Shown one piece after another: positions 36,816-52,555 of a stretch of DNA of 64,000 bases. The DNA lies in NCBI GenBank assembly GCA_026417375.1, contig JAOADJ010000025.1, positions 62,001 to 126,000 of the forward strand. Direction: 5' to 3'. The position numbers and the translations under genes are program-made. The notes below the pieces were generated by a model. That model saw only the letters and a list, made by a program, of their open reading frames with translations, ran no database searches and was not told the origin of the DNA. Source of the DNA: Melioribacteraceae bacterium. Its GTDB lineage: Bacteria > Bacteroidota > Ignavibacteria > Ignavibacteriales > Melioribacteraceae. How positions within the stretch are numbered: the first letter of the stretch is position 1; every line of letters starts with the position of its first letter.

Positions 36816-39800
36816 TTATTTTTTAATCACATTTTTTTCGTTTTTATTTTCTATTACCTTTCCACCAACTTTTTTAATGTTTAAATAAAATGGAATATCA
36901 TTTGTATCCCAAATTTTTCCATCAGATGAATCAACAATTTTAATTAATCCTTGTGAAGAAATTCTTGGTTCTGCCAAAGCTCCAAAAACAAAGTCCCAAC
37001 CAAATGCACCCGTTGATTGATAATTTGTTACTAACGTATTCCAGCTAACCCCATTATCTAAACTATAATAAATATTTACGTTACTTACTGCATAACTTGT
37101 CCATTCAATTAACATCGGCCAGTTTTCTGATACTTGTGGATTTGTTAAATCATCTGGCGGATAAAAATCTTCACCATTGTTTGGATATTTAACACGAATC
37201 TTTTTACTAGCATGAATTGAGAATGGTTTATCACTTACATCAGAAGGACCGCTTAAGCTAGAGATTCTAATCAAACAATTATCAGAACTATCAGGTCGAA
37301 CTGTTTCAGATCTTCCAGGCGCCCAAACAAATAATCCATCACTTTCTGTTGAATCTGCACCGGGTACAGTGTACCACTTTCCGCCACCATTTGTTGACCA
37401 CTCAATTTTTACTTTTGATACATGTGTTGATGTCCATTTAATTTCATAAGGATGATAGTTATTTATATCATTTGTTGGAACATTTGGTTTGCTGGCTAAC
37501 CATTGTTCATTTCCATTTGGGTAAATAACTGAAATTGTTGGTGGCGGTGTTACATAAAATGATCCACTCATTAATGAAGCACTTCCATCTGTTGCTGTTA
37601 TTCTTACAACATAAGTTGATGCATTTTGATCATATTTAAAACTGGTTGTATAAGAACCTGTATTATCAATACTATCAACTAAAGTGAACCAATCTGCCGG
37701 CACATTAATATTGTTTCTGTTGTATTCTATTTTAACTTTTTTAATTCCTTTTGATTCCCAGCGAATTACAACAGTTTCACCAGCTATAATTGAAGCTCCT
37801 GAATATGGATAAATAATTTTTGAAATTTCCGGAGTAACTAAAATTGAAAATGGTGAATTACTTTCGTCGTTTGGTTCTCCAGTTTCTGCATTGCTAATTC
37901 TTACTTTACACTGTGATGAATTAATATTCGCAGGAATTTGCCAATCGTAAGAACCTGTACTTGGTAAATCTTTAACAATTGAGCTCCAATTAATTCCATT
38001 ATTTATTGTGAAATCAATGTTCACTTTGTTAATTCCTTTGGAGTCCCAAGTTATTGTTTTTGTTTGTTTTTCTCTCCAAACTTCGCCACCATTGGGTGAA
38101 ATAATTCTTAACGTTTGTACAATTTGATTTGTGATTGTAAAGTTATTTGAAGAAATGGCATAAGGATTACCATCTGAAGCATCACTTATTTTAACTTTAC
38201 ATTGCAATGAATTTATACTTGGTATATTAACCCAGGTGTAATAACCAATACTTGGTGTTGATTGAATTATAGCGTTCCAGTTTGCACCGCCATCAGTTGT
38301 ATATTCAATTTTTACATTTGCAACATTTTCACTTGTCCAACGAATTTCTTTACTTGTACCTGATGACCAGACTTCTCCTCCGTTTGGAGTTATTATTTTA
38401 ATTGATGGTTCTGGTTGAATACTAAAGAAGGAATCACTTTCATCAGAAGGAGAATTATCTTTTGCATCACTAATTCTTACTTTACAATTTGTAGATGATA
38501 CTGCTGGTAATTGAGACCAAGTGTAAAAACCAGTGCTTGCTGTTGAATTTGTTATTGTATTCCAATTAATTCCATTATTAGTAGTGTATTCAATTTTAAC
38601 ATCAGAAATTCCAGCGGCATCCCAAGTAATAACTTGAGTAGAACCAGCAATCCATTCTTCTCCACCATTTGGTTTTGTTACTCTTATTAATTGTGTTCCT
38701 TGATTTACAATTGTGAAATTGTCATCACTAATATCTGAAGGTATTCCATCTAAAGCATCACTAATTCTTACTCTGCATTGTAACGAGCTTACATTTGGAA
38801 TAGGATTCCAATTATAAACACCATTACTTGGTGTGCTTGATGTTATTAAATTCCAAGTTGCACCATTATTTGTAGTGTATTCAATTTTGACATTTTCAAT
38901 GTTAGTTGATTTCCATTTAATGCTATTAGAAGATCCGGCAAACCATTCTTCATTTCCATTTGGTGAAAGAACTGTAATTTTAGGTTCTTCAGTTACAGAG
39001 AAAGTACCATCACTTTCATCTTGGGGAGAACCATTTTCTTTATCGATAATTCTGATTTTATATTGATTTGATGGTGCGGTAAAACTTGTTAGATATGTAC
39101 CACTTGATGGTGTTCTATCAACAATTGTAAACCAATTTGTTCCATTATTTGGTGAAAATTCAATAAGAACATTTTCAACACCGGTTGAATACCATTTAAT
39201 AGTATCAATTTTTCCGGCAACCCATGTTTCACCACCATTTGGTTTAATTATTTTCAATTCTGCTTTTGGTACAATTCTAAAATTACCATTACTTTGATCA
39301 GCAGGATCACCATCATTTGCATCACTTATTTTTATTAAACACTGAGTAGAAAATGTGTTTGGAACATTCCATTCATAAGCGCCGGTGTTTTGTAATTGAT
39401 CAATGATTGTATTCCAGGTTAAACCATTATTTGTTGTGAATTCTAATTTCACTTTAGATATACCAGAAGAACTCCAGGTAATTTGTTGATTTGTTCCTGC
39501 CTGCCATCTTTCTCCACCATTTGGAGATGTAATTTCTAAAGTTTGTGTTATTTGATTTGTAATTGTGAAAGTGCTATCAGAAACATCATTTGGTTCTCCA
39601 TCTTTTGCATCATAAACACGAACTTTACAAAGTTGTGAATTTATATTTGGAACATTATCCCAAATGTAAAATCCAGTTGATGGAGTAGATTCTTTAATAG
39701 TTATCCATGAAAAACCATTATTTGTAGTATATGCAAGTTTTACATTTTCAATATTTTCTGATATCCATTCAATTTTTCTATTTGTTCCTGAAAGAATTTT

Positions 39801-40511
39801 TTCGCCACCATTGGGTGAAATGACTTTTATTTTTGGTTCTGGCAGAATTGTAAAGATTGAACTTTCAGTTGACGGTACTCCTTCTTTTGCGTCCATTATT
39901 CTTACTTTGGCTAAAGTAGATGGTGTATTAGGAATTGGCTCCCAATAATAAATGCCTGTATTTTTTTTATCAACGGTAATTAGATTCCATCTGTTTCCAT
40001 TATTTGTAGTGTATTCAAGTTTAACTGAATCAATTCCAGAACTGAACCATTTAATTTCTTTAGCAGTGCCTGCTTCCCATTCATCTCTTTCTTTTGGTGA
40101 AATAATTTTTAAACTTTTGTTAGAATTACGAATTATTGCAAAAACATTATCACTTATATCAGAATATTTTCCATCAAGCGTAGCAACTAAAATTCGACAT
40201 TGATTTGAAATTACGTTTGGAATTGGGAACCAATTATAAACACCAGTATTTGCTAAGCTATCAACAATAAGACTCCATGATGTACCATTATCCGGACTAA
40301 ATTGAATTTTAACTTTTGATGTACCTGTGCCGCTCCACTTAATTTGAAATGATGATCCTTCTGAAATCGATTCGCCACCATTTGGTGATAAAACTTTTAT
40401 TGAAGTTATCTTTAAAGAATCGGCCGGATTAACAATGCTTTCATCATCTTTTAATTTGCACGATGATAAAAATGCAATCAAAATTAAAATTGAGAGAACT
40501 ATTTTTTTCAT
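36816..40511 (-). CDS. Large lipoprotein of twelve tandem Ig-like/Kre9-KNH-type repeats
   Basis: The 1231 residues have a lipoprotein signal (KIVLSILILIAFLSSC, lipobox LSSC). About twelve units of roughly 95-100 residues follow. Each opens with a version of I.SPNGGE.W.AG, then ITWSS.GI..VKIEYTTNNG..W..I, STG.Y.W..P, QCKVRISDA.DG.P.D.S...F.I. This pattern fits the Ser-Thr-rich/Kre9-KNH-like Ig domains common in FCB surface proteins. The last two or three units are most diverged, and the C terminus is a charged Lys/Asn tail. There is no T9SS sorting domain; anchoring would be by lipid. The ligand is unknown. It is separated from the plus-strand NHL gene by a divergent gap. Confidence 0.82.
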   Translation of the reverse strand: MKKIVLSILILIAFLSSCKLKDDESIVNPADSLKITSIKVLSPNGGESISEGSSFQIKWSGTGTSKVKIQFSPDNGTSWSLIVDSLANTGVYNWFPIPNVISNQCRILVATLDGKYSDISDNVFAIIRNSNKSLKIISPKERDEWEAGTAKEIKWFSSGIDSVKLEYTTNNGNRWNLITVDKKNTGIYYWEPIPNTPSTLAKVRIMDAKEGVPSTESSIFTILPEPKIKVISPNGGEKILSGTNRKIEWISENIENVKLAYTTNNGFSWITIKESTPSTGFYIWDNVPNINSQLCKVRVYDAKDGEPNDVSDSTFTITNQITQTLEITSPNGGERWQAGTNQQITWSSSGISKVKLEFTTNNGLTWNTIIDQLQNTGAYEWNVPNTFSTQCLIKISDANDGDPADQSNGNFRIVPKAELKIIKPNGGETWVAGKIDTIKWYSTGVENVLIEFSPNNGTNWFTIVDRTPSSGTYLTSFTAPSNQYKIRIIDKENGSPQDESDGTFSVTEEPKITVLSPNGNEEWFAGSSNSIKWKSTNIENVKIEYTTNNGATWNLITSSTPSNGVYNWNPIPNVSSLQCRVRISDALDGIPSDISDDNFTIVNQGTQLIRVTKPNGGEEWIAGSTQVITWDAAGISDVKIEYTTNNGINWNTITNSTASTGFYTWSQLPAVSSTNCKVRISDAKDNSPSDESDSFFSIQPEPSIKIITPNGGEVWSSGTSKEIRWTSENVANVKIEYTTDGGANWNAIIQSTPSIGYYTWVNIPSINSLQCKVKISDASDGNPYAISSNNFTITNQIVQTLRIISPNGGEVWREKQTKTITWDSKGINKVNIDFTINNGINWSSIVKDLPSTGSYDWQIPANINSSQCKVRISNAETGEPNDESNSPFSILVTPEISKIIYPYSGASIIAGETVVIRWESKGIKKVKIEYNRNNINVPADWFTLVDSIDNTGSYTTSFKYDQNASTYVVRITATDGSASLMSGSFYVTPPPTISVIYPNGNEQWLASKPNVPTNDINNYHPYEIKWTSTHVSKVKIEWSTNGGGKWYTVPGADSTESDGLFVWAPGRSETVRPDSSDNCLIRISSLSGPSDVSDKPFSIHASKKIRVKYPNNGEDFYPPDDLTNPQVSENWPMLIEWTSYAVSNVNIYYSLDNGVSWNTLVTNYQSTGAFGWDFVFGALAEPRISSQGLIKIVDSSDGKIWDTNDIPFYLNIKKVGGKVIENKNEKNVIKK

Positions 40512-40639: not shown

Positions 40640-41488
40640 ATGCATTTCGTAAATAAAAAATATTACATGTTATTTTTACTTTTATTAGTATCGTTTAATT
40701 ATGCGCAAAGTTTAGTTTATAATTATGAATTTGGAAACTTTAAAGATGCTTGTAGATTCAGTTATAATTATTCAGGTTATTTTTATGTTTCTGACTGTGG
40801 AAGCAATGAAATAATTAAGATTGATACATTAGGAAATGTTTCAAAAATTATTGGTGGTTATGGCTGGAATGAATCCTTATTTGATTATCCAATTGATATT
40901 TCTACTAACATTTTAAATGTTTATGTAACAGATTATAATAATAACCGTATTCAAATATTTGATAAAGACCTTAATTACATTTCTGAAATCAGAAATAGTG
41001 AGAAATTAGATTTTAAATATCCAACATCTTCTCAAATTTCAAATCAAGGTGATATTTTTGTTCTTGATTCAGATAACAAAAGAATTTTGAAACTTAACAG
41101 AAATGGAAATTTAATTACAACTATTGGCGGATTTGATGCCGGCTCATATCAATTAAATTCACCTTCAAAATTTTGTATTGATAATAATTCTAATTTGTAT
41201 GTTATTTCTAAAAATTATTTATTCATTTTCGATCAATTTGGTAATGGCTTAAAAAAAATAAAATTAAATTTTCATCCAAGAAACATTAACATAATTAATA
41301 ATATAATTTCATTAGTTAATGAATCACAAATACTTTTGGCGTTTTCAATAAATAAAAATGAACTGTTCAAAGAAGATAAATTTTTTACATTAGAAAACGT
41401 AAATGATATTAAAGATGCTGTTCTTATTAATAATAAATTATTTGTATTAAGAAAAAATATTATTCAGGTTTTTGATTTAGTAAATTAA
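40640..41488 (+). CDS. Exported NHL-repeat beta-propeller protein
   Basis: The 282 residues have a signal peptide (YYMLFLLLLVSFNYAQS) and about five to six NHL-like blades: FYVSDCGSNEIIKIDTLGN, VYVTDYNNNRIQIFDKDLN, IFVLDSDNKRILKLNRNGN, LYVISKNYLFIFDQFGN and so on. The pattern of hydrophobic-D-x-x-N-x-R-I-x-x-F followed by a G-N turn is the NHL signature. The protein is likely periplasmic or surface exposed and a binding scaffold rather than an enzyme. It is first of a four-gene plus-strand set, one base before the DUF2085 gene. No lipobox is visible. Confidence 0.8.
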   Translation: MHFVNKKYYMLFLLLLVSFNYAQSLVYNYEFGNFKDACRFSYNYSGYFYVSDCGSNEIIKIDTLGNVSKIIGGYGWNESLFDYPIDISTNILNVYVTDYNNNRIQIFDKDLNYISEIRNSEKLDFKYPTSSQISNQGDIFVLDSDNKRILKLNRNGNLITTIGGFDAGSYQLNSPSKFCIDNNSNLYVISKNYLFIFDQFGNGLKKIKLNFHPRNINIINNIISLVNESQILLAFSINKNELFKEDKFFTLENVNDIKDAVLINNKLFVLRKNIIQVFDLVN

Positions 41489-41489
41489 A

Positions 41490-41951
41490 ATGACTTATCC
41501 TCTAAGACTTATAATTTTTATTTTTGTTTTTATTTGGTTTACCGGAATTTTTTTTGAGTGGATAATTTCATTTAATAATAATTTGATTTTCATTTTCCCA
41601 TTTGCAGAAAGAACTTATTCTTTAGTTTGTCATCAAGATTCAACTAAATTAATCGGATTCAATAATCATCATACATTTGTTTGCGCCAGATGTACAGGAA
41701 TTTATTTTGGAGTATTAATTTGTTCATTTTTGAATTTAGTAAAGAATTTCAAAATTTCATTAAATAATAATTTTATCTATATATTTTTTTCAATTCTTTT
41801 GCTGGATGTTTTTGCAACAACAATTGGTATTTATGAATATTCAAAAATAATTTCATTTTTGACAGGAGTTTTTTTTGGTTCAGTTGCTTTTTCATATTTT
41901 TACTATGGTTTGAATAAATTATTCGAAGAAAAAATAGGTTTAAAAAATTGA
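41490..41951 (+). CDS. DUF2085 membrane protein
   Basis: The 153 residues have about four hydrophobic helices. The block SLVCHQDSTKLIGFNNHHTFVCARCTGIYFG, split around the first loop, shows the conserved CHQ and CARCTGIY elements of DUF2085. The function of that family is unknown; the Cys/His pattern suggests metal or heme binding or a redox site, which is only inference. The stop overlaps the next start (TTGA at 41948-41951), so translation is coupled to the following unknown membrane gene. Confidence 0.82.
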   Translation: MTYPLRLIIFIFVFIWFTGIFFEWIISFNNNLIFIFPFAERTYSLVCHQDSTKLIGFNNHHTFVCARCTGIYFGVLICSFLNLVKNFKISLNNNFIYIFFSILLLDVFATTIGIYEYSKIISFLTGVFFGSVAFSYFYYGLNKLFEEKIGLKN

Positions 41952-42460
41952 AAAAATATATTTCACCATTTATTATTGGATTTGCAGCAGGGGTTTTGCA
42001 AGTTGTTCCATTTATAAAAAGTTTCGCTTGTTGTTTAATTATTCCTTTTGCATCATATATCTCTTTATCACTCGATCAAAAAGCAAACAAAGATTACTCT
42101 AAAATTTTAATGAGTAAAGCATTTATTTTTGGAATTGTTATTGGTTTAACATCAGCATTTTTTGGTACTGTTTTCGAGATATTAATTACTTTTATAACAA
42201 AGCAGAATGATTTAATTGCTTCTTTACCAGAATTAATTAAAATGGTTGATAATTTTCCAGTCGATGAGAATATTAAAAAAGAAGTTATAAGTTTATTTGA
42301 TAATGTTAAGAATGATTTAATTAATAAAGGATTTTCGTTGTTTTATACAGTTACAATTTTATTAAATAATTTAATAGTAAATACGATTTTTGGAGTTGTT
42401 GGAAGTTTAATTAGTGCATCATTTATTAATAACAAAAATAAAAATTTGGATTTTCAATGA
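41948..42460 (+). CDS. Unrecognised four-helix membrane protein
   Basis: The 170 residues contain two hydrophobic helices at the N terminus (FIIGFAAGVLQVVPFI, CCLIIPFASYISLSL), another pair (AFIFGIVIGLTSAFFGTVFEIL) and a C-terminal helix (TVTILLNNLIVNTIFGVVGSLI). They are separated by an amphipathic charged segment (ELIKMVDNFPVDENIKKEVISLFDNV). The layout loosely recalls DUF4199 proteins, but I do not claim membership. It starts with TTG overlapping the DUF2085 stop and overlaps the next gene by four bases (ATGA). Its job must be read from its neighbours, which are also uncharacterised. Confidence 0.65.
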   Translation: MKKYISPFIIGFAAGVLQVVPFIKSFACCLIIPFASYISLSLDQKANKDYSKILMSKAFIFGIVIGLTSAFFGTVFEILITFITKQNDLIASLPELIKMVDNFPVDENIKKEVISLFDNVKNDLINKGFSLFYTVTILLNNLIVNTIFGVVGSLISASFINNKNKNLDFQ

Positions 42461-42753
42461 TTTCAGCAATAATATTTGCAGGACATTTATATTTTGTAGC
42501 TTATATATTCACTAAGAAGTGGCAAGAAGAATCACTTTCTTCCGCATTAATAAATTTCGCATTGATTACAATATTATTTGCAGTTGGTTGGTCAATAACA
42601 TCATCACTTACATATTTAATTTTCGATGAAAAGGGATTAGGGATTCATTTTGATGGAGCAACAATTTCATTAACTTTTTTAACAATAATTGAATACTTCT
42701 TTTACAAATTTTATTATAAAGAAGAAACTATTGAAGCCGGAAAGGAAATGTGA
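42457..42753 (+). CDS. Unrecognised small three-helix membrane protein
   Basis: The 98 residues include ISAIIFAGHLYFVAYIF, a second helix (LINFALITILFAVGWSITSSLTYLI) and a third (ISLTFLTIIEYFFYKFYY). A short loop with DEKGLGIHFDGA lies between the second and third. There is no signal beyond the first helix and no known motif. It is coupled to the gene before by ATGA. Its last 26 bases overlap the 3' end of tonB on the other strand, and no terminator hairpin separates the two convergent transcripts. Confidence 0.62.
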   Translation: MISAIIFAGHLYFVAYIFTKKWQEESLSSALINFALITILFAVGWSITSSLTYLIFDEKGLGIHFDGATISLTFLTIIEYFFYKFYYKEETIEAGKEM

Positions 42754-43399
42754 TAACAACTGTTTGTTCAATTTGTTGAGCGGATGAAGGAAGCGGTTCA
42801 AATCTCCATTGTCTTAATGAATTTATTGCAGCACTTTCTAATCTTGCATCAGCTTTAATTAAAGGGAAAATTTTACCAACTGTTCCATCGGGACGAATTG
42901 TAAATCTTAATTTCAAATCAATTTCTTTTGCAACACCTTCGGGATACTCTGGTAAAATATAGCTTGAAATACGACGTATTCCTTTACCACCAAAATCTAA
43001 TTCAAAACCAAAGCCACTTGTTCCGGATCCCGGTTCTTCACTTTCTTTACCTTTACTTTCTCCTGTATTAATTGGTTTAACTTTATTTGGTGGTGTTTCT
43101 TCATTTTGTTTCTTGTTTGATTTTTCTAATACATTATTTTCATCTTCATTTTTTGCTTTTGGAAGATCAACTTTTTTTTCTTCTTCATTTTTTTTAACAT
43201 CAGGTTGCTTTAATTCTTCACTATCACTTTTTGAAAAAGAAGATGGACTTCCAAAACCGGTTCCTGAACCAAAACCAATTAAAACATATTGTTCTTTTAT
43301 TTCATCTCCATTAATTGTAACAAAATAAAAAATAATTGCAAGTAAAAGATGCAATAAAAAGGAAGATATATATGAAATATTTCTAGGTTCTTTCCACAT
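42728..43399 (-). CDS. TonB-family energy transducer
   Basis: The 223 residues are an N-terminal anchor (SYISSFLLHLLLAIIFYFV), a long charged periplasmic linker rich in Lys, Glu and Asn (about 55-125), a Gly-rich piece (SGTSGFGFELDFGGKG) and a C-terminal TonB domain. That domain has YPEGVAKEIDLKLRFTIRPDGTVGKI then LESAAINSLRQWRFEPL, a normal TonB fold. It would carry proton-motive energy from ExbB-ExbD to outer-membrane partners. It is last in the exbB-exbD-tonB trio, sharing one base with exbD. The gene name is withheld because a genome of this kind probably has several paralogues. Confidence 0.9.
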   Translation of the reverse strand: MWKEPRNISYISSFLLHLLLAIIFYFVTINGDEIKEQYVLIGFGSGTGFGSPSSFSKSDSEELKQPDVKKNEEEKKVDLPKAKNEDENNVLEKSNKKQNEETPPNKVKPINTGESKGKESEEPGSGTSGFGFELDFGGKGIRRISSYILPEYPEGVAKEIDLKLRFTIRPDGTVGKIFPLIKADARLESAAINSLRQWRFEPLPSSAQQIEQTVVITFPFRLQ

Positions 43400-43803
43400 C
43401 AGAATGAAACTTTTTCTGTCTGAATTGTAAATTTATCGATACCAACACCTTTTGCTTCATCAATCACTTTTATAACTAAATCAATTTTAACAGATTGATC
43501 TGCTCGTATAGTTAAATTTTCGAGTTGACCTTTTAATTTTAACTGAGATAATTTTCCTGCAAGAGTTAATAAATTAACTTCTTCACTACCCAAATAAATT
43601 CTACTTTGATCTGTAATTGTAATTGCATTATTAACTAGTTGTGTTGGTTCATTATTTTTTGCTCCGGGTAATTTTACTTTTACACCAGTTTGCAATACAA
43701 ATTGTGATGTTAATAAAAAGAAAATCAAAAGCAACATTACAATATCCGTAAGCGAAGAAAAATTAAATGCAGTTATTGGTTTATGTACTGATTCAAATTT
43801 CAT
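43399..43803 (-). CDS. ExbD/TolR-type biopolymer transporter subunit
   Basis: The 134 residues have a single N-terminal membrane helix with the proton-carrying Asp (SSLTDIVMLLLIFFLLTSQFV), followed by a periplasmic domain (VKVKLPGAKNNEP...LENLTIRADQSVKIDLVIKVIDEAKGVGIDKFTIQTEKV). This is typical of ExbD/TolR. Lying between ExbB- and TonB-like genes, it is more likely ExbD than TolR. The distance to exbB is seven bases. Confidence 0.92.
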   Translation of the reverse strand: MKFESVHKPITAFNFSSLTDIVMLLLIFFLLTSQFVLQTGVKVKLPGAKNNEPTQLVNNAITITDQSRIYLGSEEVNLLTLAGKLSQLKLKGQLENLTIRADQSVKIDLVIKVIDEAKGVGIDKFTIQTEKVSF

Positions 43804-43810
43804 TATTCAC

Positions 43811-44458
43811 CTATTCTTCAATTTCTTCTTCGTCTGAAAAATCTTTTTCGGTATCATCAAGCACATCTAAAACTTCAGTGGCAATTCTTTCCATTTCTAA
43901 TACATTTTTATTTACACGCGAGAGAAAATAATTATAAAGAGCAAGAGCAGGAATTCCAACAATCAACCCAAATGCAGTTGTAATTAAAGCTTCCCAAATA
44001 CCACCAGCTAAATCCGCAGGACTAGCACTTCCTTGCAATTCCTGAATTCTCATAAATGCAGTTATCATTCCAGTAACTGTTCCAAGAAATCCAAGCATTG
44101 GAGCTGCACCAGCAATAGTTGCTAAAGTAGATAACCCTTTTTCCATTTTTCCTATTTCTATTTTTCCTGCTGCTTCAATTGCTTCAATTACTCTTTTTCT
44201 TCCGAACTTATATTTTTTAAGTCCACGACGAATAATATTTGCAATTGGTGATTTTTCTTCCATGCAATAATTAATTGCTCCGGTTATATCTTTCTTTTTT
44301 AGAATTCCTCTTATTTTGATAGTAAATGTTGCAAGATTTACTTTTGATTTTTTGATGGATAGAAATTTTTCAATTGTAATTGCAACAGCTATGATTGAGC
44401 CAAGTAAAATTGGCCACATCATAAATCCACCTTTAAAAAACATTTCAATTAGATTCAT
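43811..44458 (-). CDS. MotA/TolQ/ExbB proton channel family protein
   Basis: The 215 residues have three membrane helices: FKGGFMMWPILLGSIIAVAITIEKF, LSTLATIAGAAPMLGFLGTVTGMI and WEALITTAFGLIVGIPALALYNYF. The last two are the conserved ExbB/TolQ pair that surrounds the ExbD helix. An acidic tail (DDTEKDFSDEEEIEE) ends the protein. It works with the following ExbD and TonB genes to use the proton gradient. It begins 17 bases after the HU-SPOR gene, so both are likely on one transcript. Confidence 0.93.
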   Translation of the reverse strand: MNLIEMFFKGGFMMWPILLGSIIAVAITIEKFLSIKKSKVNLATFTIKIRGILKKKDITGAINYCMEEKSPIANIIRRGLKKYKFGRKRVIEAIEAAGKIEIGKMEKGLSTLATIAGAAPMLGFLGTVTGMITAFMRIQELQGSASPADLAGGIWEALITTAFGLIVGIPALALYNYFLSRVNKNVLEMERIATEVLDVLDDTEKDFSDEEEIEE

Positions 44459-44475
44459 AATTTTTCCTTATAAGA

Positions 44476-47178
44476 TTAAAAATTATTCTTTTTCATAAAG
44501 TCGTATGCTTCTTTTTCTGAATTAAAATATCCAATTCTAACACGATACCAAGTTCCACCTTTTTGTGGCAAATAAGCTTCAGTAATAAAAGCATTAAAAC
44601 CTAAAGAACGTAATCTATTTACTTCAACTTCAGCAAGAGATTTGTTTTTCCATGATGACGTTTGGAAACTATAATTTTTTCCATCATAGAAAATCATGTT
44701 GCTTAATCTAATCTCATTATTAGAATTTCCTTTTTGAACATTCTTATTTTCAATTGCTGGTTTTAGTTCCCTGTTTTCATTTTTTTGAACAATTAATTTT
44801 TCATTTTCTTTTTTACTTTCAACTGGAGTTATTGTTTTAGTCGGAATATTATTTTCTTTTGGAATAATTTGTTCAATATTAATTTCATTACCACGTTGAA
44901 TGGGTTTTGGTGGTGTTGCTGAAATAGGAAAATCACTATACTCTTCTAATGTTAATTCAGAAGTTGTTTTATCTGTTTGTTGTTCAAATGAATTTGTTTG
45001 TTCTGCTATTTTACCCTGTGAATTTTCAGATTTTATTTCATTGGTTTGTTCTTTATTAGTAATTTCTTTTGATTTCTGATTAGAAAATATTCCAATAGAA
45101 AAATAAGCAACTACACTTAATACTAACAAACTACTTAAAATGATTGCAACATATTTCCAATAATTTTTCTTTTCTTTCTCAACTTTAATTATTTCGATTT
45201 CTGTATCAGAGTTTTCAATTGTTTTAGAAATTGTTTTTTTCTCATTGAGGTTTTCTTGTTCTTCCGGAGAAAGAATTATTGTAATTTTTTTTGGAGGTTT
45301 TAATAAAGGTTCAGTTTGTGTTTCAATTATAGTTTTATTTTCAACAGGTTTTTCCTCTATAAATTCATATTGAGGTGGTGGAGTTTTAAAATCTAAAATT
45401 ACTTTTTCATCTTTTATTTCAAAATCATTTCTGGATTCATTTAGTATTTCTTCGAAATCATTTATTTCTTCTTTGGGGTTTACTTCTGGTTTTTCAAAAA
45501 CAGTTTCTTCATTTTTTACATCAATTTCATTTTTAAGAAAATCAATTTCTTTTTCAAGAGTTTCTTCAAGTTTTGTAAAAAGATCAACTCTTGTTTTACT
45601 TAATTCTATTGTAGGTGAATCTTCATACTTTTCTGGAAATTCATTTTCAATGTCAAAGTTATCTGTTGTATCTTCATTTTTGGTTTCTTCAACATATTCA
45701 ATATCAATTTTTTCCAAATTACCAATACCAAATTCTTCTTTTAATTCATCTCCCCAATTCCATTCAATTTTTGTTATTGGAATTTCAGATTCAATTTGAT
45801 TTTCAAATTCATCTTCAATTTGATCTTCTTCTTTATTTATTTTTTTTAATTGATCTTCGGTAAGTAATTTGTTTAAAACATCTGAATTATTTTCATCACT
45901 TGTATTTTTTTCAAGGTTCGAAATTTCACTTTGAACAATTTGCTTTAGTTCACTTTCTTCAATATTTATTATATCATTGTTAAAAAAAGAAATATCATCA
46001 AATATCAATTCTTTTGATGAAGCAGGTGGTTCTATTTTAATTACACTTTCATCTGAATTATTAATATCATTTTCTAATAACTTATTCAAATCGATTTTTT
46101 CATTTGAAATATTTTCTTCAACAATATTTGTATTGCCTATAGTATTTTCATTATTATCATTTTGATTTTCAGCAGTATTAATATTTTCATTAATATCAAT
46201 AATTAATGAATTGAACTCTTCCGGCTTATTATCAATTTGATTTGACTGCTCAACTATATCTTCGCCTTTACTTCTTATAATTTCTTCACCAAATTTTTCA
46301 AGTTCTTCAATTTGATTTTTTAATTCTTCCGCAAATGAAGAAATTTCATTTATTCTTTCGTTTTCAAGTCTTTCAAAATGTTCAACATTTTTTTCATCTA
46401 TATTATCATCAATTCTTTGCTCTTCGTTATTATTAATTTCTATATGTTCTGTTGGTCCTTCTAAAAGATTTTCTACTGAAATATTATTTGATAGTGTAAT
46501 TTCAATACTATTAATTTCATCATCAATTTTTTGGTTTAACAATTCATTGCTTATATCATTTTCTTCGAAATCATTTTCAATTTTAAAATCATGGTGTTTT
46601 AATAATGTATCAATTAAGTTCTCACCAACTTTATCATTTGTAGTTATATCAGGTTCTTCATCATCATAATGATATTCGCTTAAAATATTATCATCTTTTT
46701 CATCTTCATTTATAAATTCATTCCAGATATTATAATTAGGAATTTGGTCTGAATCCGCAATTAACTCTTTAGCTCTTTCTTCAATTGATTTTCTAAGGAT
46801 TTCATATGAAGCTTCGGAATTTTTTTCAGCTTCACTTTGAACAAGAGGTAATAATGGTTTACCAACTCCAATACTAAAAACTTGAGAATCTATTTCATAG
46901 TTATTTTTGTTTTTGTTTTGTAATTCCAAAGCGAGATAAAAATTCTTTGAAGAAGATGTATAATCTTCAGGTAAACTTGCGAATAAAATTTTGTTTGATG
47001 ATTTAGATTCATCTGAATCTTTAATTTGGAAATAGCCAATTCTTGGAACTTTTAAGGTAATTCCAAAGCTTATTGCCTGAAATATTTTTTCTAAAAATAT
47101 TTCATATGCAAGATCGCTTTGGGTTGAAGAAACACCTAAAACGTCTGCAATTCTTTTTTTTAATTCGGCTGTGTTCAT
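44476..47178 (-). CDS. HU-like (CCDC81-type) domain protein with acidic linker, membrane helix and C-terminal SPOR domain
   Basis: In 900 residues, residues 1 to about 130 resemble the prokaryotic HU-CCDC81 domains seen in Bacteroidota (LKKRIADVLGVSS and AISFGITLKVPRIGYFQI). A very long Glu/Asn/Asp/Ile-rich, low-complexity segment fills about 160-670. A membrane helix (WKYVAIILSSLLVLSVVAYF) lies near 676, then a periplasmic linker. A SPOR domain from about 832 (YSFQTSSWKNKSLAEVEVNR and TWYRVRIGYFNSEKEAYDF) would bind denuded peptidoglycan strands at septa. The topology places HU in the cytoplasm and SPOR in the periplasm. It follows the beta-barrel gene and precedes ExbB-ExbD-TonB. Confidence 0.82.
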   Translation of the reverse strand: MNTAELKKRIADVLGVSSTQSDLAYEIFLEKIFQAISFGITLKVPRIGYFQIKDSDESKSSNKILFASLPEDYTSSSKNFYLALELQNKNKNNYEIDSQVFSIGVGKPLLPLVQSEAEKNSEASYEILRKSIEERAKELIADSDQIPNYNIWNEFINEDEKDDNILSEYHYDDEEPDITTNDKVGENLIDTLLKHHDFKIENDFEENDISNELLNQKIDDEINSIEITLSNNISVENLLEGPTEHIEINNNEEQRIDDNIDEKNVEHFERLENERINEISSFAEELKNQIEELEKFGEEIIRSKGEDIVEQSNQIDNKPEEFNSLIIDINENINTAENQNDNNENTIGNTNIVEENISNEKIDLNKLLENDINNSDESVIKIEPPASSKELIFDDISFFNNDIINIEESELKQIVQSEISNLEKNTSDENNSDVLNKLLTEDQLKKINKEEDQIEDEFENQIESEIPITKIEWNWGDELKEEFGIGNLEKIDIEYVEETKNEDTTDNFDIENEFPEKYEDSPTIELSKTRVDLFTKLEETLEKEIDFLKNEIDVKNEETVFEKPEVNPKEEINDFEEILNESRNDFEIKDEKVILDFKTPPPQYEFIEEKPVENKTIIETQTEPLLKPPKKITIILSPEEQENLNEKKTISKTIENSDTEIEIIKVEKEKKNYWKYVAIILSSLLVLSVVAYFSIGIFSNQKSKEITNKEQTNEIKSENSQGKIAEQTNSFEQQTDKTTSELTLEEYSDFPISATPPKPIQRGNEINIEQIIPKENNIPTKTITPVESKKENEKLIVQKNENRELKPAIENKNVQKGNSNNEIRLSNMIFYDGKNYSFQTSSWKNKSLAEVEVNRLRSLGFNAFITEAYLPQKGGTWYRVRIGYFNSEKEAYDFMKKNNF

Positions 47179-47183
47179 CTATT

Positions 47184-48770
47184 TTACCACCGATATTCAA
47201 TACCGGCTATATAATCAAAAGGTTTTTCTTTATAATAATGCCAAACAAAGTTACTTCTATTTAAAATATTTTGAAAATCAATTTTAAATTTTAATCCGTA
47301 TAGTAATTCATATGAAAAACCAATGCTTAAGTTAGAATAATTATCAAATTTATTTTTATTCATTAAGTCAGAGTAATATTTTCCAAAATATAAATAACCA
47401 ATACTTGCATTTAAACCATTTTGAAAATTATAACTGTATTCAAAATTAATTTTCCAATTTGGTTCAAAGGGAATTGTTTTATTATTGGGATCCTCAACAA
47501 TTTGATAAGATATTTCTGAAAATAAATTTCCATAAATATTGTTGTATAAATATAAACTTGATGAGATTAAAAATTTGGTAACATCATTTCTAGTCAGAAT
47601 TGAATAATTTCTGTTTAATAAAACATCTTCATAGTAAACATAATTATCAATTTGAGCTAAGTTAAATGTGATTGAATTAGAAAAACTTTTTTTGTAGTCA
47701 AATTTGAAATTTAGTTTTAAATCATTTTTATATTTAACAAATGAATTATCTATCGTTAAATCTGCAAAATTATTTTTGTTTATAAAATCATATGTTGAAA
47801 TATATTCTACATGTGGATTGAACAATAAAGATAGACTTAAATTATTATCAAATTTAAGTTCTCCGAAAGCAAAAGGTGAAAAGAAATTATATTTTGAATT
47901 TGTATTGAAATTTAATCCCGATTCAACATTTAGAAAATTAAATGGAGTAATCTTTACAAAAGCAATAATATCTAAAAAGTTGTAGGATCTTTCTTTTTTT
48001 AAATCATCATTAATTGTTTCGTTGGTTATTTTAAGTTTTCCACCTAAGTTAAAATCTTTCAAAGATATTTCCGCAAATGAATTTGAATTAATTTTTACAC
48101 TTTTAAAGTTATCAGAATTTATTTTATATACATTTCCATCTATATCAAAACCAAAATGAAAATAATTTATATAATTATTTGCTAATGAAAATTTTGTGGT
48201 TAAATAGTTTGTTTCTCTTTTATTAGAAGGTAAATTTGATCCATATAAATTGTATGAATCTCTAAAATAAGTTCCACTTAAATTAATTTTAGTTCCTGGT
48301 AAAAAACCCGATTTAGTACTTATGTGAAAATCATTATTTAAAGTAATTCCAGAGTTATTGTAACCTGAATAAGGTAAATATTCTTTTAAATTATTTCCCC
48401 ATACATTTAAATTGAATAAATAGTTATCAAAACTCTTTGTTAAAAATAATTCACCTAATGGGAAAGTATATCTTCCGAGCATAAAATTTAATTTACCGGT
48501 AAAATAATCTTGAGATAATTTGATACTCGGTAATTTTTGAACAGGTTCAGAAATAAAAAATAATGGTAATTCTTCAGTTGAATATTTTGGTGTGAAAAAA
48601 TCCTTTGAAAGAATTGATATTAATTCAATTTTTGGTTTTTGTGCAAGTTGCACTTCAATACTTTGTTTACCAGTTATTACAAAATCGGGAAGTTCAATAC
48701 TTTGTTGTTCACTTTGAGAAAATAAATTGATAAAACAAATAAGAAATAAAATCAAAAATTTTTTCATCAT
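47184..48770 (-). CDS. Outer-membrane beta-barrel protein (TonB-dependent-receptor-like)
   Basis: The 528 residues have a signal peptide (MKKFLILFLICFINLFSQS), then IELPDFVITGKQSIEV, a short N-terminal segment resembling the end of a TonB box/plug lead. About twenty alternating amphipathic strands follow, ending FDYIAGIEYRW, with the aromatic last residue expected of a barrel assembled by Bam. No full plug domain is visible, so I do not call it a complete TonB receptor. It overlaps the TPR gene stop as ATGA and lies five bases before the HU-SPOR gene. The operon also encodes ExbB, ExbD and TonB. Confidence 0.72.
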   Translation of the reverse strand: MMKKFLILFLICFINLFSQSEQQSIELPDFVITGKQSIEVQLAQKPKIELISILSKDFFTPKYSTEELPLFFISEPVQKLPSIKLSQDYFTGKLNFMLGRYTFPLGELFLTKSFDNYLFNLNVWGNNLKEYLPYSGYNNSGITLNNDFHISTKSGFLPGTKINLSGTYFRDSYNLYGSNLPSNKRETNYLTTKFSLANNYINYFHFGFDIDGNVYKINSDNFKSVKINSNSFAEISLKDFNLGGKLKITNETINDDLKKERSYNFLDIIAFVKITPFNFLNVESGLNFNTNSKYNFFSPFAFGELKFDNNLSLSLLFNPHVEYISTYDFINKNNFADLTIDNSFVKYKNDLKLNFKFDYKKSFSNSITFNLAQIDNYVYYEDVLLNRNYSILTRNDVTKFLISSSLYLYNNIYGNLFSEISYQIVEDPNNKTIPFEPNWKINFEYSYNFQNGLNASIGYLYFGKYYSDLMNKNKFDNYSNLSIGFSYELLYGLKFKIDFQNILNRSNFVWHYYKEKPFDYIAGIEYRW

Positions 48771-51727
48771 AAACCTTTCATTTTCTTTTTAGCTTCATCA
48801 GCAAATAAATCATTTGTGTGTCTCATTAAAACAGCACGAAACATTTCTCTTGCTTGTTTTTTGTCATTAAGTTTAATAAAACAATCTCCTAATCTTAAAA
48901 GTGATTTAGTGTACCATTCATCGTAAGCAGCAAATACACTTCTTGTTCTTACAAATTGTGTTATAGCTTCTTCAATTTTATTTTGATTAAAAAATACTAA
49001 CCCTAAATTATATTGAGCTTCTGCTCCAATATCATCAAGTCTGTTTTCTGCAATTTCTTTAAAGTAGATTTGAGCTTTGTCAAAATTATTTCTTGCTAAT
49101 TCTATTTTTCCAATTTCAATTTTTGACTTTGAAGAAAAAATTGAAGTGCTGTAATAATTTGCAACTTGTTCGAATGTTAAAACAGCATCATTAATATTTC
49201 CAGATTTATTTTCAGTTATGCCTTTTAAGTATAGTAATTCAGGAATTCTGTTTGATGATGAATTTAGTGCAATTGTTTCTTCTAATATTTTATTTGCTTC
49301 AGAATAATTGTTGGTTAAAAAATATATTTGAACAAGTTCAACTGTTGATGAAATACCAATATCATTTTTCATTGCAATTGATCTTGACAAATTAAAATTA
49401 GAAATGGCTTCATTATAATTTTTTAAATTAGCTGATGACTTACCAATCCAATAGTAAGCATTTGAAACTAAATTACTTTTAGGATAACGTGAAATAAAAT
49501 CTTTGTATGAATTTACAGCATCGCTATAATTTTCTAAACTATAATACAAATCACCTTTCTTAAAATAAATTTGGTCACTGAACTTAGAGTTCGGATTGTT
49601 TGCTATAAATTCATCAATAAAAGAAATTGCTCTTTCTGGTTGATCTAGTGCAACAAAAGAATATTGAATTCCATTTACAGCATCAAAAACATATTGCGAA
49701 TTAGGATAATTTTCTATTACTCTTGAATAATAAACAATTGCAGAATCGTAACTCCCTTTATTGAAATATGCATCACCAATTGAGTATTCAACAATTGGAC
49801 GCAAATCTGAACTTGGATATTTTTTTAATAGAAGGTTGTAAGAATAAATTGCGTCATCAAATTTATTTTGTTGGAAATTTATCCAACCAATTACATATTG
49901 TGATTCATCAACATATTTTGATTTTGGAAATCTAACTTGAAGTTCTTCAAAAGTTTTTTTTGCTTCATCTGTTTTTTCTGCTTTAAAAAGTGATTGTGCA
50001 AATTGATAGAATGCATTGTCGTTATTAATATTTTTGTCATTTAATATTAACTGTTGATAAAGAGATGCCGCTTTTTCAAAATTCTTGGAAGCAAAATAAC
50101 TGTCAGCAAGTCTTAACTTTATTTCATTTATATTTTTGTCATTCGGATAAAGTGTTATATAATCATTAAAACTATCAATTGAATTTCGAAAATCTTTGGA
50201 ATTAAAAAATGTATAAGCTTTGCCCAGTAAAGTTTGTCTGTTTATTAATTTATCATTTGACTTTACCAAGTTATAATGTTTCAATGCAGCAACATATTTA
50301 CCTTGATAAAAATAAACTTCTGCTAAATAAAAATTTACTTTATCTGATTCAAATGTTTTATCATTTTTAATTACCTGCTCTAAAAACTTTTCAGCATCTG
50401 AATAATTTTTTAGATAATAATTTGAAACGCCTAAACCAAGATTGATTCTATTTTGTACTTCTTGAGAAATGAAATCCAAATTTTTTGCTTCATTAAAATA
50501 TCTTCTTGCTTCAGAAAATAAATTATTATTAAGTCTTAATTCTCCTAAAAGAATTAATGCTTTAATTTTTGTTTGTTTATCATTTGAAAGGATTGCATTC
50601 TGCAGAGATTCCTCTGCAATTTTAGAATTTGCTTCGTTAACAAAAACCACTCCTCTACTTAGTTGCGCTTTAGATGCCAATTTATGTTCAGGATAATCAT
50701 CAATAAACTTTTTAAATATTTCATCAGCTTTTTTGTTATTGCCTAAATATCTATAACATTCACCAGACCAAAACAATGAAAGAATTTTTATGGTATCGTT
50801 TGAAACTTTATATAAACTATCAAATACAGTCAACGCATCTTGATATTTATTTTGTTGAAAATCAATCCATGCTTTGCTAAATAAAATTCTATTTAAAAAA
50901 TTTTTATCCTTTGCTGAATTAATTAACTGAGATAAAATTTCTTTTGCATCAGATAATTCATTTAATCGGGCATGAGAAATAGCTAAAAAATATTTTACTT
51001 CATTTTGTTTTTCATCATCTAAAAGCTTTGTCAAATTATCACTTAATTCCAAAATCGCATTATCATAATCACCAAGATTAAAATAACAAATACCAATTCT
51101 AAACTGAGCTAATGGTGCCAGCTCACTTTGTTTAAAGTAAGTTAATATTTCATCATAATATTCAATCGCTTTTTTAAATTCATTAGTTTTTTCATAAACC
51201 TGAGCAAGTGAATAAAGAGAATTTACATAAAACTGATTTGTTCTTTTATTAGAAATTGCATCTTTAAAATATTCTTCAGCATCAACAAATTTATTTTCTG
51301 AAAGGTAAGATTCACCCAACCAATACAATGAAGATCCGTAATTTTCATTAAAAGGAAAAAGTTTAATTAAATTAAAAAATCTTTCTCTTGCTTTTCTATA
51401 TTCTCTTTTCTGATTATAAATTACTCCAAGTTTATAGTATGCTGATGATATTAAATCACTTGTAAAATTATCTTGTATAAATTCTTCAAATTCAATAGCT
51501 GCTCCATCCAATTGATCTAAATTTAATAAACAATCTGCAATGTAAAATTTTGAAATAGATTTAGTTCGCTGATCAATTTTGTCATTTACTTTTACTTGTT
51601 GAAATAATTTTAATGCAGCTCCATAATTGAAATCATTGTATTCTTTAAATGCCTGATCAAATAAATGATTTACCTTTTGACCAAATATTAAATTTGAAAT
51701 TAATAAAAGAAGAAAAATTTTTTTCAT
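48767..51727 (-). CDS. Large exported TPR-repeat protein
   Basis: The 986 residues have a signal peptide (KKIFLLLLISNLIFGQ) followed by more than twenty tetratricopeptide units of about 34-36 residues. Examples are AAIEFEEFIQDNFTSDLISSA, ARERFFNLIKLFPFNENYGS, AIVYYSRVIENYPNSQYVFDA, and AVNSYKDFISRYPKSNLVSN. The FP-x-S spacing (YPNS, YPKS) resembles YbgF/CpoB and BamD-like periplasmic TPRs. The likely place is the periplasm or outer-membrane inner face, as a scaffold for envelope complexes. It is the first gene of the envelope operon that continues through barrel, HU-SPOR and TonB genes, nine bases after the DUF92 gene. Confidence 0.85.
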   Translation of the reverse strand: MKKIFLLLLISNLIFGQKVNHLFDQAFKEYNDFNYGAALKLFQQVKVNDKIDQRTKSISKFYIADCLLNLDQLDGAAIEFEEFIQDNFTSDLISSAYYKLGVIYNQKREYRKARERFFNLIKLFPFNENYGSSLYWLGESYLSENKFVDAEEYFKDAISNKRTNQFYVNSLYSLAQVYEKTNEFKKAIEYYDEILTYFKQSELAPLAQFRIGICYFNLGDYDNAILELSDNLTKLLDDEKQNEVKYFLAISHARLNELSDAKEILSQLINSAKDKNFLNRILFSKAWIDFQQNKYQDALTVFDSLYKVSNDTIKILSLFWSGECYRYLGNNKKADEIFKKFIDDYPEHKLASKAQLSRGVVFVNEANSKIAEESLQNAILSNDKQTKIKALILLGELRLNNNLFSEARRYFNEAKNLDFISQEVQNRINLGLGVSNYYLKNYSDAEKFLEQVIKNDKTFESDKVNFYLAEVYFYQGKYVAALKHYNLVKSNDKLINRQTLLGKAYTFFNSKDFRNSIDSFNDYITLYPNDKNINEIKLRLADSYFASKNFEKAASLYQQLILNDKNINNDNAFYQFAQSLFKAEKTDEAKKTFEELQVRFPKSKYVDESQYVIGWINFQQNKFDDAIYSYNLLLKKYPSSDLRPIVEYSIGDAYFNKGSYDSAIVYYSRVIENYPNSQYVFDAVNGIQYSFVALDQPERAISFIDEFIANNPNSKFSDQIYFKKGDLYYSLENYSDAVNSYKDFISRYPKSNLVSNAYYWIGKSSANLKNYNEAISNFNLSRSIAMKNDIGISSTVELVQIYFLTNNYSEANKILEETIALNSSSNRIPELLYLKGITENKSGNINDAVLTFEQVANYYSTSIFSSKSKIEIGKIELARNNFDKAQIYFKEIAENRLDDIGAEAQYNLGLVFFNQNKIEEAITQFVRTRSVFAAYDEWYTKSLLRLGDCFIKLNDKKQAREMFRAVLMRHTNDLFADEAKKKMKGL

Positions 51728-51736
51728 TTAGCTTTC

Positions 51737-52555
51737 TTAAATATTTAATAAAATAATAATTAAAATAGTTCCTGATAATCCGGCAATAAAATTCACAACA
51801 TCATTATTAATAAAACTAATTCCTCTGTAAAATTTTGTTTCTTCGCCACAGTGAAAATTTCTTTCTGTAATTTTATTGCAAACAGAACATTCTTTTTGTA
51901 GTTGAATAGTAGCACCTAAAATGCTATCTATGAAACTTCCAAATAAACCTGAAACAATTATTAAAATAAAATAAAAAGCGTAATTCATTTCTATCCAATA
52001 AATTCCGGAAAAAGAAATAGCAACAGTACCGGCTATTGCTCCTAAAGTACCAATAAAAGAAATTCCACCTGAAACACCTTGCTCTACTTCTTTAAATGTT
52101 AAAATATTATACGTTTTTGTTTTATTCCATGTTCCTAATTCAGTTGCCCATGTATCTGCACAAACAGCAGATAGTGAAGCTAAGTAAAGCAAGTAATAAA
52201 AATCACTATCATATAAAAAATAAAGTATAACTAATACTCCACCCAAACCACCATTAGCTAAAACTTGAAAATAATCTCGAGTTCCACTTTTTTCAAAAAA
52301 TAATTCTACTTCATCATTTTTCTTTTTACGAAGCTTTGAAATTAAACTTGAAAGGATAAAAAAGGTTAAAATTGGAATACTCCATTTAATTCCACCGAGT
52401 GTAAAAATAATACCTGCTAAAAAAAAAGTTGCGATTGAACCACTTAGAGTAAGAAATTTTAATCTATATGAAATAAAAACAATAACAAAAGCGATTAATA
52501 AACTTATAAGTGCTTGATTAATAAAAGAGATGTTGAAAATAGAACTAATTAACAT
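51737..52555 (-). CDS. DUF92 integral membrane protein
   Basis: The 272 residues have about seven hydrophobic segments. Family marks are GGLGGVLVILYFLYDSDFYYL, ADTWATELG (a strongly conserved DUF92 block), GVSGGISFIGTLGAIAGT, GSFIDSILGATIQLQ and NNDVVNFIAGLSG. A cytoplasmic CSVCNKITERNFHCG lies near the end, a likely zinc cluster also seen in relatives. Plant VTE6, a phytyl-phosphate kinase, belongs to this family, so a polyprenyl-phosphate kinase role is possible but unproven. tRNA-Leu is upstream on the same strand, and DUF92 may be read from that promoter. Confidence 0.82.
   Translation of the reverse strand: MLISSIFNISFINQALISLLIAFVIVFISYRLKFLTLSGSIATFFLAGIIFTLGGIKWSIPILTFFILSSLISKLRKKKNDEVELFFEKSGTRDYFQVLANGGLGGVLVILYFLYDSDFYYLLYLASLSAVCADTWATELGTWNKTKTYNILTFKEVEQGVSGGISFIGTLGAIAGTVAISFSGIYWIEMNYAFYFILIIVSGLFGSFIDSILGATIQLQKECSVCNKITERNFHCGEETKFYRGISFINNDVVNFIAGLSGTILIIILLNI

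Follow-up and report, generated by a model that had tools for sequence, protein, structure and literature searches.

A plugless TonB-dependent-transporter-type barrel encoded with a SPOR protein and a dedicated ExbB-ExbD-TonB motor: a candidate trans-envelope system of Melioribacteraceae and their phylum

In the current model of the Ton system, TonB draws on the box of a TonB-dependent transporter (TBDT) and so unfolds its plug (review PMC12905483). The operon analyzed here shares with that system ExbB, ExbD, TonB, the barrel fold and, judged by sequence, a TonB box, but its barrel is plugless, its motor is a dedicated one besides the canonical motor, and its partners are a TPR and a SPOR protein. 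Its likeness to Tol-Pal would lie in a 5:2-type motor with a transducer acting on the outer membrane and in a TPR partner that is CpoB-like in kind only; on the other hand, the operon has neither TolB nor Pal, its outer-membrane target is an integral barrel rather than a lipoprotein, and its transducer resembles TonB and is paired with a protein that carries a putative TonB box. The available part of PMC12204202 reports that tol-pal loci are not identifiable in Bacteroidetes and that PorE, a CpoB-TolB-Pal-like fusion, is proposed for an outer-membrane tethering role; it makes no mention of this operon, for which we propose the same job, whereas PorE consists of one lipoprotein that includes an OmpA-like domain. 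Some class-level members of the operon's SPOR family share with FtsN/DedD-type proteins a short cytoplasmic part, one transmembrane (TM) helix and a periplasmic SPOR domain, but they belong to a fixed operon with a barrel and a motor, and the protein of the window (the whole 64,000-nucleotide stretch analyzed here) has a long, HU-bearing cytoplasmic part. In several phylum-level loci the SPOR gene of the operon carries the HU domains of HU-CCDC81-SPOR proteins (PF18174/PF18175), for which Burroughs, in 2017, is said to have predicted a role in chromosome partition without placing them with a plugless barrel and a motor.

All parts of the operon come from known families, and neither their combination nor a plugless TonB target was found in the literature searched, which covered few subscription papers and no preprints and gave no description of this operon. 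We class the system as a variant of the Ton/Tol type, neither a TBDT system (no plug) nor Tol-Pal (no TolB, no Pal). As far as that literature shows, its barrel would be the first plugless TonB target to be described, and such a target would uncouple nutrient gating from the force exerted on the outer membrane. We put at about even the chance that this is an undescribed Ton/Tol-type trans-envelope system by which the outer membrane is drawn in and tethered at division; the operon gives direct candidates for the machinery with which Bacteroidetes pull their outer membrane inward and keep it in place at that stage.

The original prediction of six same-strand genes with gaps of 17 bp or less was borne out, all ORFs lying on the minus strand, and its assignments of TPR, SPOR (2e-10), ExbB, ExbD and TonB domains held. 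Together with the DUF92 gene upstream, which had lain outside its view, the genes are:

51737-52555, minus strand, DUF92 membrane protein, 9-bp gap to the TPR gene
48767-51727, minus strand, TPR gene, 986 aa, secreted TPR solenoid with many TPR domains matched
47184-48770, minus strand, barrel gene, 528 aa, plugless TonB-dependent-transporter-type outer-membrane barrel
44476-47178, minus strand, HU-TM-SPOR gene, 900 aa, bitopic protein
43811-44458, minus strand, ExbB/TolQ motor stator, domain match 8e-34
43399-43803, minus strand, ExbD/TolR motor rotor, domain match 2e-24, proton-site Asp20
42728-43399, minus strand, TonB, TonB_C match 1e-7, S13 and H17 in the TM helix, conserved C-terminal domain

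The junctions from the TPR gene to tonB are, in order, a 4-bp overlap, gaps of 5, 17 and 7 bp, and a 1-bp overlap. Since DUF92 lies 9 bp from the TPR gene and immediately upstream of it in many relatives too, it is probably the seventh, and first, gene of the same operon. Promoter and terminator scans gave signal no better than shuffled sequence, and a PHROGs search gave no match. The TPR protein, whose mean column identity is 53% (26 orthologues aligned), begins with a signal-peptide-like stretch, and no lipobox Cys was seen in its N-terminus.

That the second of the six genes encodes an outer-membrane barrel also stood, and the barrel can be further specified as a plugless TBDT-type protein with a putative TonB box that had escaped the first analysis:

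48669-48695, minus strand, putative TonB box at residues 26-34 of the barrel protein (ELPDFVITG), within its disordered N-terminal tail
47187-48509, minus strand, beta-barrel domain, residues 88-528, about 22 strands (DSSP on the model)

The 528-aa window protein matched no family in Pfam/NCBIfam searches. Its AlphaFold2 model (pLDDT 88) has a confident barrel over approximately residues 88-528, preceded by residues that are mostly disordered or of low confidence and without strands. Foldseek matches of the model are TonB-dependent transporters (E 2.5e-16), and VIA-align against the FhuA/BtuB barrels gave Z 24.2 and rmsd 2.8 over 419 residues; with both programs the alignment begins right after the plugs of the transporters (FhuA 158, BtuB 134). 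Sequence profiles agree weakly with this identity. The Pfam transporter barrel is matched by 11 of 79 family members, and the Plug domain (PF07715) was found in 0 of the same 79. Of the TBDT features, the 22-strand fold is present, the TonB box is present by sequence and the N-terminal plug is absent, and the protein is predicted from its model to be a TonB-dependent-transporter barrel that has lost its plug and kept its TonB handle. Of the 58 genomes of the order, 56 have a relative of the barrel, present as a single copy bar split contigs and two marginal extra matches. Profile matches were obtained in 227 of 296 phylum genomes, the weaker ones including ordinary transporters; L151 was rejected as an operon barrel for this reason, its sequence being of the plug type.

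No other nine residues in a row of the barrel protein are as conserved as ELPDFVITG (mean 0.965 versus 0.425 in alignment A1, 45 rows), and 2000 column shuffles reached a maximum of 0.80. Only A1, gathered independently of the motif, was counted for this purpose; alignment A3 was left out because its loci had been chosen by the pattern ELP[DE]FVIT. Plug-bearing transporters of the same genome have the boxes NEIVISG, DEVVVTG and NEIIVTA directly before their plugs, and from its resemblance to these ELPDFVITG is judged to be a TonB box. Class and phylum orthologues of the barrel have related hydrophobic strands at the box position.

In the window and its order the features of a Ton motor are all present: ExbB, ExbD with the proton Asp, and TonB with S-x3-H and the C-terminal domain. 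S13 and H17 of the operon TonB are invariant across 43 orthologues, and identity to the window protein is 34-84% across 42 relatives. The window's genome has a second, canonical ExbB-ExbD-ExbD-TonB cluster and 25 Plug matches. Although the operon motor scores higher with TolQ/TolR than with ExbB/ExbD, this was rejected as a sign of a Tol motor since the canonical Ton motor of the same genome gives the same pattern. S-x3-H is missing from some class and phylum operon TonBs, including phylum-level ones that adjoin ExbBD; in several class-level lineages neighbouring ExbBD is lacking as well, so that proton coupling may not be universal. At L113, L116, L118, L119, L120, L122, L126, L127 and L128 the operon TonB has neither neighbouring ExbBD nor S-x3-H; these proteins have a common N-terminal motif like PWDxxTARGF, and the barrel box is retained. 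A TonB of this kind is possibly a passive tether, and lineages without neighbouring ExbBD or S-x3-H suggest that the TonB link itself may matter even without force. In the window's genus the operon ExbD is absent from two loci, where the TonB-like gene (L036:11586-12167, L037:10981-11562) has an ExbD-like start (MKFES...), lacks the Asp and S-x3-H, keeps a TonB-type C-terminus and looks like a degenerate ExbD-TonB chimera; an intact ExbB-ExbD-TonB set is encoded elsewhere, in the case of the L037 genome at L298. G001 and G004 were rejected as motor-less genomes since a complete ExbB-ExbD-TonB set was found elsewhere in them.

The functional connection between the genes was at first drawn from gene order. 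A link beyond gene order is given by the putative TonB box of the barrel, which is absent from barrels of lineages that lack the operon TonB and its ExbD. At L112 (genome G066) the barrel tail is kept and the box is missing; at L123 and L301 (G109 and G291, one genus) the barrel N-terminus has no box, a box-like strand being present in all 18 other class-level loci of L113-L131. The operon-type TonB is absent from these three genomes or represented by E 1e-5 matches only, and they have two ExbD genes, the tandem canonical pair, compared to three elsewhere. The co-loss is a count over lineages, with box loss in two. Since both lineages retain TPR, barrel and SPOR proteins without motor and box, the core may work without force. 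In G045, G054, G225 and G309 the barrel, the operon TonB and a full-length TPR orthologue are all absent, but G045 is not clean support for motor loss because it keeps three ExbD genes. Physical coupling within the system is well supported, and we hold it with high confidence.

The third of the six genes encodes the following parts:

46993-47178, minus strand, HU-like cytoplasmic domain, residues 1-62 of the 900-aa protein
45085-45144, minus strand, single transmembrane helix, residues 679-698 of the 900-aa protein
44488-44682, minus strand, SPOR domain, residues 833-897 (PF05036, 1.8e-10)

With both TM helix and SPOR domain present, a periplasmic SPOR arrangement is predicted. Class and phylum relatives have one TM helix between the N-terminal region and SPOR, and a SPOR protein with a single TM helix occupies this slot in nearly all loci examined. 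The HU-like domain claimed by the original prediction is weak in the window protein (21.0 bits for the whole protein against a cut-off of 22.4), yet PF00216, the HU family of Pfam, was hit by 45 of 46 members (best 2e-20), and the domain model has an HU-like topology, helix-helix-strands, with weak PDB fold matches (best E 0.28). HU is found in order members and in G109/G291, and HU or HU-CCDC81 in L134, L138, L139, L140, L144 and L149. Since it is absent from short TM-SPOR proteins of the same slot (e.g. L114, L115, L124, L125), HU is an optional cytoplasmic module, a variation that the first analysis could not see. The HU-SPOR protein has the lowest mean column identity (16%) among the operon proteins aligned. 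The connection to the nucleoid suggested earlier was not sustained: with HU divergent, and missing from the short proteins that fill this slot in other lineages, the system's core role cannot be to tether DNA. The one pointer to septal targeting by this protein is the SPOR domain, from which such a role may be suggested.

The gene order is not confined to this genome, being found across the order, class and phylum, and its recurrence across the phylum upholds the earlier idea of a conserved, undescribed, motor-powered trans-envelope system. It is nearly constant in 52 loci of the order, and the exact complete gene set, with or without DUF92, is present in 55 of the 80 loci of the named set. 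G065 and G136, rejected as cases of operon loss, are two further loci with the operon and have a diverged barrel. Order-level synteny proves little, and its weight as evidence was reduced, since the convergent flanking genes used as a control are syntenic at the same level (43-48 of 52 order loci). Across the class and phylum, however, the flanks are lost (0/40 loci for three of the flanking genes, 4/40 for one), whereas the TPR gene is ahead of the barrel gene in 36/40, a SPOR-slot protein follows the barrel in 29/40, and ExbB and ExbD are both present in 15/40. This recurrence of the operon order with loss of the flanks is not chance. The four convergent genes, syntenic with the operon across the order, lie at 40640-42753 of the window on the plus strand and encode an NHL repeat protein, DUF2085, a DUF4199-like protein and a 98-aa ORF; the last of these shares 26 bp with the 3' end of tonB and was also seen at four class-level loci.

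TolB (PF04052) was not found in the window's genome or in any of 18 sampled phylum genomes, and among relatives 3 of 39 gave marginal matches only. The operon has no Pal lipoprotein; the Pal model stayed below its cut-off in all 39 genomes, which have OmpA-like domains elsewhere. We propose that ExbB-ExbD would convert the proton gradient to force and that the operon TonB would bridge the periplasm, its C-terminal domain binding ELPDFVITG on the flexible N-terminal tail of the barrel. Without a plug to unfold, the pull would be felt by the barrel, and through it by the outer membrane or by the TPR protein bound at that site, and would not open a nutrient gate. The TPR protein may sit beneath the barrel as a periplasmic scaffold or cap, and the inner-membrane-anchored SPOR protein would recruit the assembly to denuded septal peptidoglycan. 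The most likely function would be to draw in and tether the outer membrane during division, as Tol-Pal does elsewhere. A Tol-Pal-like tethering or constriction role is our leading reading, held at slightly below even confidence, from the force on a plugless barrel, the SPOR domain, the near-universal presence and the lack of TolB in a phylum reported to be without tol-pal. More tentatively still, the system could be what Bacteroidota have in place of Tol-Pal: driven by protons, present throughout the phylum and placed at the septum by SPOR, it would draw the outer membrane inward at division through the tail of a plugless barrel. Against the division reading, a plugless 22-strand barrel points to a channel, a component that Tol-Pal does without, and PorE is already proposed for the Tol-Pal role in Bacteroidetes in the available part of PMC12204202.

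The main alternative is a TonB-gated conduit through the outer membrane. The TPR protein would dock inside the plugless barrel or beneath it, acting as its gate or as an adaptor for cargo; TonB, by its pull on the barrel tail, would open a path along which a polymer, protein or lipid is exported or imported, and SPOR would serve only for wall fixation. With no plug of its own, a wide transporter barrel has to be closed by a partner, and the overlapping TPR and barrel genes are the most persistent pair in the class and phylum loci (36/40). PgaA and AlgK/AlgE are TPR-plus-barrel export machines and count in favour of such a conduit. So does the M. xanthus transporter Oar, which is required for protease secretion according to the available part of PMC6434023. 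A conduit nevertheless seems less likely to us, since the operon has no cargo gene, its near-universal, phylum-wide spread is unlike that of substrate-specific systems, and the constant SPOR protein would be left unexplained.

Even less probable is a chromosome-to-wall tether coordinating segregation with division, in which HU would hold the nucleoid, SPOR the septal peptidoglycan, and the barrel and motor would be the outer anchor. HU in nearly all order members tested and HU-CCDC81 in the same slot of phylum-level loci would fit this arrangement, but HU is divergent where present, short TM-SPOR proteins in the slot do without it, and the 16% identity is the lowest of the aligned operon proteins. 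It is highly improbable that the barrel is an ordinary TonB-dependent nutrient receptor lying by chance beside a Ton motor: it has the barrel fold and putative TonB box of a nutrient transporter, but without a plug it has no known gating or substrate site, it is near-universal in the order, and the same genome has a separate canonical Ton cluster and the 25 Plug matches. The barrel has not proved to be such a receptor, the outcome that would have told against the original prediction, and the tethering or constriction role remains our preferred reading.

Some loci have additional genes in or near the operon. A 144-aa gene lies between the TPR and barrel genes in one class-level locus (L130:6033-6467). 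At the phylum-level loci L295 and L296 a NAD-kinase-like gene is found downstream of the motor genes, which may connect these loci with other Ton clusters of Bacteroidota. In the window itself, 36816-40511 on the minus strand encodes a putative 1231-aa lipoprotein with many SPNGGExW-type repeats.
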